From Trinickia caryophylli (GTDB lineage Bacteria; Pseudomonadota; Gammaproteobacteria; Burkholderiales; Burkholderiaceae), in assembly GCF_034424545.1 (NCBI RefSeq), contig NZ_CP139971.1:1798001-1862000 (forward strand): DNA of 64,000 bases. Reading direction: 5' to 3'. Positions within the stretch are counted from its first letter, which is position 1. Each line of letters opens with the position of its first letter. This document shows positions 1,571 to 4,661 of the stretch, in pieces. The translations under genes were made by a program, and so were the position numbers. Below the pieces are notes generated by a model. The model was not told the origin of the DNA and made no database searches. It saw nothing but the letters and a program-made list of their open reading frames with translations.

Positions 1571-1666
1571 CGGCGCTTTCGTCGGGCGGCGGCAGCATGG
1601 GATCGCAAAGCGGTGCGCGGGCGCCGGCTGCGGTCGACGATTTTTCGTATCTTTGAAGGACCTGCC

Positions 1667-3214
1667 ATGTGCGGCATCGTAGGCGTAGTCTCCCATTCCC
1701 CGGTCAACCAGCTGGTCTACGACAGTCTTCTGCTGTTGCAACACCGCGGTCAGGACGCAGCCGGCATCGCAACGGCGAACGGCAGCACGTTCCACATGTA
1801 CAAGGCCAACGGCATGGTGCGCGACGTATTCCGTACGCGCAACATGCGCAGCCTGCCCGGCACCTCGGGCATCGGCCAGGTGCGCTACCCCACGGCCGGC
1901 TCGGCCACGAGCGAGGAAGAGGCGCAGCCGTTCTACGTGAACGCGCCGTTCGGGATCATCCTCGCGCATAACGGCAATCTCACGAACTGGCGGCAGTTGA
2001 AGGACGAAATGTTCCGCATCGACCGCCGGCACGTGAACACGAGCTCCGATACAGAGGTGCTGCTCAACGTGCTCGCGCACGAATTGCAGCTTGCCACCAC
2101 GGGCCTCGAGCTCGATCCGGCGACGATCTTCACGGCGGTGGCCGGGGTGCATCGCCGCGTGCGCGGCTCGTATGCGATCGTCTCGTTGATCTCCGGCCAC
2201 GGGCTGCTCGCTTTCCGCGACCCGTTCGGCATCCGCCCCCTTTGCATCGGCAAGCTCGAGACCGAGCAGGGCGTGGAGTGGATCATCGCGTCGGAATCGG
2301 TGGCCGTCGAGGGCATCGGCTTCGAATTCGTGCGTGACGTCGCGCCCGGCGAGGCGATCTTCATCGACAACGACGGCAAGCTGCACAGCCAGCAGTGCGC
2401 CACGAAGCCGAGCCTGAACCCCTGCATCTTCGAATACGTCTATCTTGCCCGGCCCGATTCGGTGCTCGACGGCGTGCCCGTCTACAACGTACGCCTGCGC
2501 ATGGGCGATTATCTGGCCGAAAAGATCAAGCGCGAGCTCGGCGATGTGAAGATCGACGTGGTCATGCCGATTCCCGACTCGTCGCGGCCCGCTGCCATGC
2601 AGGTTGCCGCGAAGCTCGGCGTGGAGTATCGGGAAGGCTTCTTCAAGAATCGTTATGTCGGCCGCACGTTCATCATGCCCGGCCAGGCCGTGCGCAAGAA
2701 ATCGGTGCGCCAGAAGCTCAATGCCATGGCCGTCGAGTTCAAGGGCAAGAACGTGCTCATCGTCGACGATTCCATCGTGCGCGGCACGACATCGCACGAG
2801 ATCGTGCAGATGGCGCGCGACGCGGGCGCGAACAAGGTGATCTTCGCGTCCGCCGCGCCGCCGGTGAAGTATCCGAACGTTTATGGCATCGACATGCCCA
2901 CGCGCGGCGAGCTCGTCGCCCATGGGCGCAGCGACGAGGAAGTGGCGAAGATCATCGGCGCCGACTACCTCGTGTACCAGGACGTCGAGGCGCTCAAGCA
3001 GGCTGTGCGCGACATCAATCCGTCGCTCCTGCGCTTCGAGGCGTCGTGTTTCGATGGCGATTACATCACGGGCGACGTCACGAGCGAATATCTGGACGTG
3101 ATCGAGCGCGCGCGCAACGCGCCCGCGTCGCAAGCCGATCGCGATTCGGCCGGCGACGTGACCGACAGTACGGTCACGCGCTCGCAATTGCACCTGCAAC
3201 TGTCGGTGGAGTGA
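1667..3214 (+). CDS. purF: Amidophosphoribosyltransferase (purine synthesis step 1)
   Basis: Transfers glutamine-derived ammonia to PRPP to make 5-phosphoribosylamine, the committed step of purine synthesis in the cytosol. The start is the ATG at 1667 with GAAGGA just upstream; it gives MCGIVGVV, so Cys2 becomes the N-terminal Ntn nucleophile after Met removal. An in-frame upstream GTG or ATG would bury this residue and is rejected. The glutaminase half carries LLQHRGQDAAGI and NGNLTN; the C-terminal half carries the PRPP-binding motif VLIVDDSIVRGTT near residue 361. At 515 residues it is a normal E. coli-type enzyme. It is the last gene of the folC cluster; a candidate riboswitch and a terminator follow. 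Confidence 0.97.
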   Translation: MCGIVGVVSHSPVNQLVYDSLLLLQHRGQDAAGIATANGSTFHMYKANGMVRDVFRTRNMRSLPGTSGIGQVRYPTAGSATSEEEAQPFYVNAPFGIILAHNGNLTNWRQLKDEMFRIDRRHVNTSSDTEVLLNVLAHELQLATTGLELDPATIFTAVAGVHRRVRGSYAIVSLISGHGLLAFRDPFGIRPLCIGKLETEQGVEWIIASESVAVEGIGFEFVRDVAPGEAIFIDNDGKLHSQQCATKPSLNPCIFEYVYLARPDSVLDGVPVYNVRLRMGDYLAEKIKRELGDVKIDVVMPIPDSSRPAAMQVAAKLGVEYREGFFKNRYVGRTFIMPGQAVRKKSVRQKLNAMAVEFKGKNVLIVDDSIVRGTTSHEIVQMARDAGANKVIFASAAPPVKYPNVYGIDMPTRGELVAHGRSDEEVAKIIGADYLVYQDVEALKQAVRDINPSLLRFEASCFDGDYITGDVTSEYLDVIERARNAPASQADRDSAGDVTDSTVTRSQLHLQLSVE

Positions 3215-3230
3215 TGCCGCCCCGGCGTGT

Positions 3231-3298
3231 TACGATGCAGGCTCAGCGTCGATTTGAGTTCAGCTTGCGGACGCGGGGCGCCCCCCGAAACAGCTAAA
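3231..3298 (+). promoter_or_regulatory. Candidate SAM-II riboswitch upstream of metZ, with -10 element
   Basis: A -10-like TACGAT lies at 3231-3236, placing a transcript start near 3243. Immediately after it are the conserved blocks of the SAM-II (metA) aptamer in the right order: P1 5' arm GCGTC (3246-3250), GATTTGA (3251-3257), GCTTGC (3263-3268), P1 3' arm GACGC (3270-3274), and the pseudoknot tail GCTAAA (3293-3298). The loop between P1 and the tail is GC-rich and holds a GGGGCGCCCC palindrome. SAM-II elements are known to control metA, metX and metZ, mainly in Alphaproteobacteria, and this one precedes metZ. The pairing was read by eye; no covariance search was done. Confidence 0.78.
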
Positions 3299-3358
3299 GC
3301 GAACGGGGCCGAAAGGCCGTCCGACGCCAAGCCGTTTTCTCGTAGCACCCCGTACACG

Positions 3359-3393
3359 AAGCCCGCTTTTGCCGACGCGAAGCGGGCTTTTTT
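3359..3393 (+). terminator. Intrinsic terminator between the SAM-II-like element and metZ
   Basis: Perfect 10-bp stem AAGCCCGCTT (3359-3368) / AAGCGGGCTT (3380-3389) with an 11-base loop, then a T-run at the base. It lies ~60 bases after the riboswitch-like tail and ~70 bases before metZ. It could end the purF transcript, or be the expression platform of the riboswitch, or both. Confidence 0.85.
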
Positions 3394-3461: not shown

Positions 3462-4661
3462 ATGACGGCTATGGACGACTTCTTCAATTTCGACACGCTC
3501 GCCGTTCGCTCCGGTACGGTGCGAACCGACTACAACGAGCATTCCGAGGCGCTCTTCCTGACTTCGAGCTTTTGCTTCACGAGCGCAGCCGAAGCCGCCG
3601 AGCGCTTCAAGCATTCCGAGGAGTACTACACCTATTCGCGCTTCACGAACCCGACCGTGACGATGTTCCAGGATCGCCTTGCCGCGTTGGAAGGCGGCGA
3701 GGCCTGCATCGCGACAGCGTCGGGCATGAGCGCGATTCTCTCGGTCGTCATGGCCGCGCTGCAGGCGGGTGACCATATCGTCAGTTCACGGGCGCTTTTC
3801 GGCTCGACGATCGGCTTGTTCACGCAGATTTTCGGCCGCTTCGGCGTGAGCACGACCTACGTGGACGCCAACGACCTCAGTGCCTGGAAAGAGGCCGTAC
3901 GGCCGGAAACGAAGCTGTTCTTTGTCGAAACGCCGTCGAACCCGCTCACCGAGCTGTGCGACATCGAGGCGATCGGCAAGATCGCCAAGGCGGCCGGCGC
4001 ACTCTTCGTCGTCGACAATTCGTTTTGCAGCCCGGCCGTGCAGCAACCGTTGAAGCTCGGCGCCGATGTCGTCATGCATTCGGCAACGAAGCTCATCGAC
4101 GGGCAGGGGCGTGTACTGGGCGGCGCGCTCGTGGGCACGCGCCAGTTCATCATGGAAAAAGTGTTCCCGTTCGTGCGTACGGCCGGCCCCACGATTTCGG
4201 CCTTCAACGCGTGGATCCTGCTCAAGGGTTTGGAGACGCTTGCCCTGCGGGCCGAGCGTCATTCGGCCAATGCGCTCGCTGTCGCCCGCTGGCTCGAGGC
4301 ACATCCGCGCGTCAAGCGCGTGTACTATCCGGGGCTCGAATCGCATCCGCAGTACGCGTTGGCTCTGCGCCAGCAGAAGTCAGGCGGCTCGGTACTCGCA
4401 TTCGAAGTGGTGGGCGAGACGCCCGAAGAGCAGCGCACGAATGCGTGGCGTGTGATCGACGGCACTCGCCTTTGCTCGATCACGGCCAACCTCGGCGATA
4501 CGCGCACGACCATCACGCACCCGGCCACGACGACGCACAGCCGTATCACGCCCGAGGCGCGGGCGGCTGCGGGCATTACCGAGGCGTTGCTGCGCGTGGC
4601 GGTGGGCCTCGAGGATGCCGGCGATATCCGTAGCGATCTTGCGCGCGGCCTCGACGGTTGA
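3462..4661 (+). CDS. metZ: O-succinylhomoserine sulfhydrylase
   Basis: A 399-residue PLP enzyme of the Cys/Met metabolism family, expected to make homocysteine from O-succinylhomoserine and sulfide. The N-terminus (DTLAVRSGTVRTDYNEHSEA) and the cofactor motif MHSATKLIDGQGR, with the Schiff-base lysine near residue 210, match MetZ rather than MetB or MetC. Start ATG at 3462; a second in-frame ATG three codons on (MDDFFNF) is also possible. The candidate SAM-II riboswitch upstream makes control by the methionine/SAM level likely. O-acetylhomoserine use cannot be excluded from sequence alone. Confidence 0.93.
   Translation: MTAMDDFFNFDTLAVRSGTVRTDYNEHSEALFLTSSFCFTSAAEAAERFKHSEEYYTYSRFTNPTVTMFQDRLAALEGGEACIATASGMSAILSVVMAALQAGDHIVSSRALFGSTIGLFTQIFGRFGVSTTYVDANDLSAWKEAVRPETKLFFVETPSNPLTELCDIEAIGKIAKAAGALFVVDNSFCSPAVQQPLKLGADVVMHSATKLIDGQGRVLGGALVGTRQFIMEKVFPFVRTAGPTISAFNAWILLKGLETLALRAERHSANALAVARWLEAHPRVKRVYYPGLESHPQYALALRQQKSGGSVLAFEVVGETPEEQRTNAWRVIDGTRLCSITANLGDTRTTITHPATTTHSRITPEARAAAGITEALLRVAVGLEDAGDIRSDLARGLDG

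Follow-up and report, generated by a model that had tools for sequence, protein, structure and literature searches.

The purF-metZ interval

The window analyzed here is a 64-kb stretch of the Trinickia caryophylli genome in which metZ follows purF on the plus strand (Table 1). The closest named MetZ proteins are those of Paraburkholderia sp. NMBU_R16 and of Trinickia (88-91%). The interval between the two genes carries all of the SAM-II blocks in the correct order on the plus strand, within positions 3246-3304. The original prediction had pointed out these blocks, from the P1 stem GCGTC/GACGC through GATTTGA and GCTTGC to GCTAAA, along with a TACGAT -10 element and a palindrome in the GC-rich loop; all are present, with the palindrome lying inside a hairpin.

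Table 1. Features of the purF-metZ interval, with positions in the window
Feature	Position	Strand	Basis
purF, upstream gene	1661-3214	+	TIGR01134, 513.6 bits
Extended -10 promoter element TGtTACGAT	3228-3236	+	TG 3228-3229, TACGAT 3231-3236; sequence
P1 5' strand GCGUC	3246-3250	+	Pair counts in alignment A1
L1 GAUUUGA, SAM pocket uridines	3251-3257	+	Pocket positions from PMC3764141
P2 pseudoknot 5' strand: P2a GUUC, A, GC, then P2b UUGC	3258-3268	+	
GCTTGC block	3263-3268	+	Sequence
P1 3' strand GACGC	3270-3274	+	Pairs with GCGTC 3246-3250
Palindrome GGGGCGCCCC	3275-3284	+	Inside hairpin P3
P3, extra hairpin GGGG/CCCC directly after P1	3275-3286	+	Folding of inserts
Rest of L3, A-rich GAAACA	3287-3292	+	Alignment A1
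P2 3' strand: GCUAAA (SAM pocket, 3293-3298), GC, GAAC	3293-3304	+	
Intrinsic terminator: stem 3359-3369/3379-3389, T-tract 3388-3393	3359-3393	+	Script and folding
CGACGC in terminator loop, predicted antiterminator partner	3373-3378	+	Complement of P1 5' strand plus G, 3246-3251
metZ, O-succinylhomoserine sulfhydrylase, regulated gene	3462-4661	+	NF006003, 718.5 bits; TIGR01325, 567.1 bits (cut-off 510)

The -10 element is an extended one, and the consensus TGNTANNMT occurs just ahead of P1 in 49 of 57 loci from the window's own family, the Burkholderiaceae (family loci below), compared to 1 of 855 control windows taken further upstream. From this position, we infer that transcription starts at about 3242-3245. 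A simple scan for promoter and terminator consensus sequences missed both the -10 element and the terminator, its sole terminator-like site lying elsewhere, at 3233-3251. The CGACGC motif of the terminator loop has a second copy upstream of the terminator, at 3322-3327, a possible competitor for the P1 5' strand; an extra copy of this kind is also seen in loci of the same genus, for example L023 and L025.

The gene context is that of methionine metabolism. Downstream of the element lies metZ in 56 of the 57 family loci (window included) and metX in the remaining one, L119. Among 19 loci with canonical SAM-II leaders, described below, the downstream gene is metX in nine, metZ in eight, metK in one and metH in one, the last two being named from the starts of their proteins. 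These two loci, L042 and L052, thus present canonical SAM-II leaders in front of apparent metK and metH genes in Burkholderiales.

Homology searches and the identity of the aptamer

When the whole window is searched with Rfam, the sole match above a curated cut-off is to RF02424 (Bp2_287), on the minus strand at 3392-3216 (98.4 bits, gathering cut-off 70). The SAM-II family RF00521 reaches 13.7 bits at the element against a gathering cut-off of 36, in a partial match covering 3246-3274, and RF01726 (SAM-II long loops, gathering cut-off 44 bits) gives no match at cut-off in the window, nor any at E<=10 in positions 3700 and below down to 2900. A match above threshold to the Rfam SAM-II model was what the original prediction had called for; this failed to appear, and a literal reading of that test would have led to the claim being dropped. 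The failure of RF00521 is probably due to the extra hairpin together with local divergence. Elsewhere in the source genome, the best RF00521 match (15.3 bits, E 1.84) is a site directly before metX; all 14 control genomes also give matches.

RF00521 passes its cut-off in 36 of 200 Burkholderiales genomes. As the canonical set, 20 RF00521-positive loci were retrieved, and the 19 with a full core were aligned (A2), L049 being left out for want of a core. The covariance model R1 was made from these 19 SAM-II loci, all of them outside the Burkholderiaceae. R1 finds the element in the window with 31.9 bits (E 4.9e-7, 64 kb searched), the runner-up scoring 12.9 bits. It also detects all 18 sources tested, namely 17 family loci and the metX leader of the source genome, at E 1.1e-4 or better, with the match in four of them covering the 5' half of the model only. 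At E<=0.01, 134 of 150 Burkholderiaceae genomes contain an R1 match, a count of model matches whatever gene follows. In these same 150 genomes, RF00521 has no match over its cut-off and reaches E<=0.01 in three, and RF01726 likewise has none over its cut-off. A search of 150 family genomes with an exact pattern spanning the complete core finds it in 34, and the reversed pattern in none. In the phylum at large, R1 matches 61 of 299 genomes at E 0.001. One genome of the same phylum and another class (G359) has two same-strand R1 matches, C1:2499283-2499343 and 2499451-2499507, which are 107 bases apart, score 70 and 27.1 bits and are possibly a tandem SAM-II arrangement.

The conservation of the element was followed in alignment A1, with 58 sequences: 39 family loci (including the window and L119), 18 canonical loci and the source genome's metX leader. 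These 58 were taken from 77 cores after near-duplicates had been removed by hand; alignment A3 took 41. From 34 loci fetched, the eight in which the pattern found no core (L114-L118, L120-L122) had been left out before the counts. Two pairs of P1 change on both sides in A1 and are never broken: pair 2-32 is GC in 51 sequences and AU in 7, and pair 5-29 is UA in 38 and CG in 20. Pair 6-28, which adjoins the loop, is broken in one sequence (L093), and 15 of the 58, the window included, leave a potential sixth P1 pair open. GAUUUG, UUGC and GCUAAA are invariant in all 58, and the pocket pairs UUGC:GCUAA are intact throughout. Within P2a, the inner two pairs are kept in 57/58 and 54/58 sequences and the outer two in 28/58 and 31/51. 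The covariation among relatives that the original prediction had looked for is seen in two pairs of P1; the outer P2a pairs are poorly kept.

How much of this variation exceeds chance? Alignment cells with double changes number 50, compared to 18.8 in shuffles, and none of 500 shuffles is as high. No excess is seen for pairs with double changes (6 versus 4.8, with 105 of 500 shuffles as high) or for further pair types (16 versus 15.9, with 287 of 500 as high); of the five measures of covariation, these two do not exceed the shuffles. The aptamer folded alone is no more stable than its shuffles (z -0.21). In the crystal structure 2QWY, the SAM contacts and pocket are reported to involve U10-U12, U20, U21, G22, C23 and G42-A47 (PMC3764141), and the corresponding positions are invariant in A1.

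Considering the model matches, the covariation, the conserved pocket and the neighboring genes, the sequence comparisons argue strongly that the element in the metZ leader is a SAM-II-class aptamer, as had been predicted. The betaproteobacterial lineage had been singled out as being of interest in itself. This part stands less well, given that Barrick & Breaker 2007 (PMC2258182) had already described SAM-II from beta-Proteobacteria, frequently together with terminators, and that RF00521 passes in Burkholderiales as described above; the hairpin variant, on the other hand, appears to be new.

The extra helix P3

In the family metZ copies, a hairpin comes straight after P1 and is followed in most cases by (G/A)AAACA. 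The inserts of the metZ set fold into hairpins of 3-13 pairs. Comparing each distinct insert with its own shuffles puts 28 of 32 ahead of 95% of them in folding, as against none of 16 distinct canonical L3 sequences. Canonical SAM-II loci of the order, in the aligned set, differ in being without P3 and in having an L3 of the type UUAAAAAU.

The copies in front of metX retain a canonical L3 (for example ACUAUAAAUGCG) and carry, at the place of P3, a different hairpin. This insert is present in 18 of 20 loci fetched and in the source genome's own copy; L142 is without the insert and L141 without the core. Fourteen of 19 distinct metX inserts beat 95% of their shuffles, and in the alignment of these inserts five helix pairs change on both sides, with the innermost broken in up to 6 of 19. 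In the proposed structure, P3 would separate P1 from L3 and would probably stack on P1.

Terminator and predicted antiterminator in front of metZ

The terminator of the window has a predicted stability of -21 kcal/mol (z -3.96), which none of 200 shuffles equals. When the leader is folded only up to the terminator loop, without the 3' arm, the P1 5' strand pairs with the loop CGACGC, and GCUU and CG of the P2 5' strand pair with the foot of the terminator. When the full leader is folded, the terminator wins and P1 is formed.

These folds suggest the following switch. With SAM scarce, the P1 5' strand (3246-3251) would capture the terminator loop (3373-3378) as it emerges, and the P2 5' strand (3263-3266 and 3268-3269) would pair with the terminator foot (3357-3362); with both pairings in place the terminator would be blocked, and metZ would be read. 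With SAM bound, the P1/P2 pseudoknot would hold both strands, the terminator would form, and the product would be a leader of about 150 nt only.

L040 and L046 exemplify canonical leaders whose terminator carries the complement of the P2 5' strand instead of that of P1, so that the partner strand differs and the switching logic may still be shared; an antiterminator of the P2 5' strand alone, as in these two leaders, accounts for just part of the fold in the window. An inner antiterminator helix between GCGGG 3273-3277 and CCCGC 3362-3366 is absent from the folds and was dropped, and a count of G-U versus A-C by strand proved to be biased by the terminator finder and was set aside.

By the finder script, 49 family leaders have a good terminator and 8 of the 57 family loci have weak ones only. 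GACGC is present in the terminator loop of 34 of the 49, and in all but one of these 34 leaders (L095) the pairing between P1 and the loop dominates the fold made before the 3' arm. The mean over the 34 is 4.7 of 5 pairs, compared to 1.3 with the terminator segment shuffled, although single shuffles reach up to 5.0. Since the remaining 15 of the 49 terminators, mostly from genus g11, are without loop GACGC and eight loci have only weak terminators, the P1-loop antiterminator is not universal. At L092, L093, L104, L108 and L110-L112, the terminator that was picked mismatches the P1 strand, and another antiterminator or mechanism may apply there; the L092 terminator was probably mis-picked by the finder.

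A natural test is offered by 80 named loci, 70 with the aptamer before metZ and 10 without. All 70 aptamer-bearing loci have GCGTC as P1 5' strand. The terminator persists in nine of the ten relatives without an aptamer before metZ (L148, L153, L168, L189, L191, L195, L204, L206 and L220), where the aptamer has been lost and the terminator kept. Of the aptamer-bearing loci, 67 of 70 have GACGC in the terminator loop; of the aptamer-less ones, 3 of 9 do (Fisher p 2.3e-5, an optimistic value that ignores the kinship of the loci, which are related). If G-U pairs are allowed, two of the three aptamer loci without loop GACGC (L150 and L209) still pair, and so does L206, one of the six aptamer-less loci without GACGC.

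The original prediction had offered the terminator as a possible expression platform. With the loop motif tracking the presence of the aptamer, it is now very probably just that, and the P1-loop antiterminator is a prediction supported by the folds. On the evidence of sequence, we regard it as highly likely that the leader is a SAM-II-class riboswitch that switches metZ through transcription termination.

A second copy in front of metX

The metX leader of the source genome (L001, on contig C1) is a second SAM-II copy, and the finder reports no terminator in it; further loci with a metX copy are L123-L140. In the source genome, this copy probably acts on translation. A segment U(U/C)UAGCCGC precedes the start codon in 14 of 20 metX leaders examined and is the complement, or nearly so, of the aptamer strand GCGGCUAAA. 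As an alternative, GCCGCC within the module can pair with GGCGG adjoining the metX start codon. When the leaders are folded only up to the module, the pairing with the aptamer strand forms in all 14, with 6.9-9.0 of 9 pairs. When they are folded whole, eight of the 14 favor the aptamer pairing, five (including the source genome's copy) favor the start-codon hairpin and L126 is near balance. The other six metX leaders are without the module, and four of them (L134, L135, L137 and L138) show a T-tract of 6-7.

The P2b 3' strand GCGGCUAAA would thus act as an anti-sequestor by pairing with U(U/C)UAGCCGC, a platform for metX that is, again, a supported prediction from modelling. Putting the two leaders together, we lean towards a separate SAM-II subclass with P3, one that is missed by the Rfam SAM-II models and filed as an antisense small RNA, and that may be used twice in one genome, with different outputs: with the P1 5' strand as antiterminator before metZ and with the P2b 3' strand as anti-sequestor before metX.

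Alternative explanations

Given that RF02424 is the only Rfam family above its cut-off at the element, and that the RF02424 candidate was detected by RT-PCR (Khoo 2012, PMC3521395), could the conserved RNA be an antisense or trans-acting small RNA made from the minus strand? The arrangement of the locus speaks against it. In all 57 loci compared, the window included, RF02424 runs on the opposite strand to the aptamer, and in 56 of these metZ follows the aptamer on the aptamer's own strand; the conserved -10 element, the aptamer and the T-tract are all on the metZ strand; and the RF02424 model starts with the reverse complement of the terminator. Moreover, Khoo et al. themselves proposed a cis element of methionine metabolism. 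A minus-strand small RNA was rejected on these strand grounds and seems very unlikely, and the RF02424 model appears to represent the complement of the leader strand. A further possibility is that the fold is the same but binds another ligand, such as S-adenosylhomocysteine, or that the aptamer has decayed. There is precedent for a SAM-II domain that is silent in its context (PMC11508383), but the positions that contact SAM or line its pocket in 2QWY are invariant here and the downstream genes make methionine or SAM, which leaves this reading very improbable.

Perhaps the aptamer is real and the terminator is the mere end of purF, insensitive to SAM, with control exerted elsewhere, for example on translation. 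The similar terminator left in nine of ten aptamer-less relatives, after what appears by eye to be the end of purF, is what one would expect in that case, and the terminator may indeed also end the purF transcript. However, GACGC in the loop has been retained chiefly by loci that have the aptamer, and the promoter sits between purF and the terminator, so that metZ needs read-through from that promoter. In addition, the terminators of canonical L040 and L046 are complementary to an aptamer strand, that of P2, instead. We consider a purF terminator that does not respond to SAM unlikely.

Comparison with known systems

Elements that are probably or apparently the same have surfaced several times under other names. 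Beta-Proteobacteria are also named for SAM-II in a 2009 paper (PMC2704228). Leyn 2014 (PMC4239095) describes a metXZ element of beta-proteobacteria, found before metX or metZ, with a possible pseudoknot and a terminator downstream; there it is called new, and SAM_alpha is reported only in Rhizobiales and Rhodobacterales. Each genome in that study has a single copy, which precedes metXW in 30 of 35 cases and metZ only in five others, and the element is tabulated for 8 of 8 Burkholderia genomes. We infer that it is SAM-II. Because it is single-copy and mostly precedes metXW, it probably equals the metX copy described here, and the metZ copy seems absent from the Leyn 2014 counts.

The metZ leader itself has been met as a small RNA. 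Bp2_Cand287_SIPHT/RF02424, suggested as a cis element of methionine metabolism in Khoo 2012, BTH_s31 of B. thailandensis (PMC4035088) and RIT77 of B. cenocepacia (PMC10987360) are the same element by the cross-naming of these sources themselves (PMC3521395, PMC4035088, PMC10987360). The 135 nt of RIT77 compare with 138 nt for the predicted terminated leaders of the same-genus loci L005, L009 and L011. They differ from the present reading in that all three are handled as small RNAs, and RF02424 models the strand opposite metZ. In the literature searched, mostly outside subscription papers and hence weak evidence, no paper was seen to equate the Burkholderia element with SAM-II. Apparently new are the variant with its hairpin, the misfiling of the RNA family and both platforms.

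If the interpretation is correct, it supplies a ligand and a mechanism for an RNA that has been reported repeatedly without either, as Bp2_287/RF02424, BTH_s31, RIT77 and probably metXZ. It would also make SAM-II-type control of methionine genes common in Burkholderiaceae (134 of 150 genomes with R1, none with the Rfam SAM-II models), put an Rfam family on its proper strand, and provide a natural test of one aptamer wired to two kinds of output.

Among established families, the element resembles RF00521 (SAM_alpha) in P1, GAUUUGA, UUGC, GCUAAA, the P2 pseudoknot, the methionine genes and the terminator platform, and the link between the two runs via the betaproteobacterial loci that pass RF00521. 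It differs from that family in the extra P3 after P1, the shortened L3 and the low score (13.7 versus 36 bits). RF01726, listed for Bacteroidetes and marine samples (Weinberg 2010, PMC2864571), is a SAM-II variant held as a family of its own and thus a precedent for splitting; the family element is told apart from it by model scores and by the taxa listed in that source. A parallel in arrangement comes from S. meliloti, where SAM-II likewise lies before metZ with a terminator, and where the terminated leader has been seen as the small RNA RZ (PMC9373788); that leader is alphaproteobacterial, unlike the element of the Burkholderiaceae.
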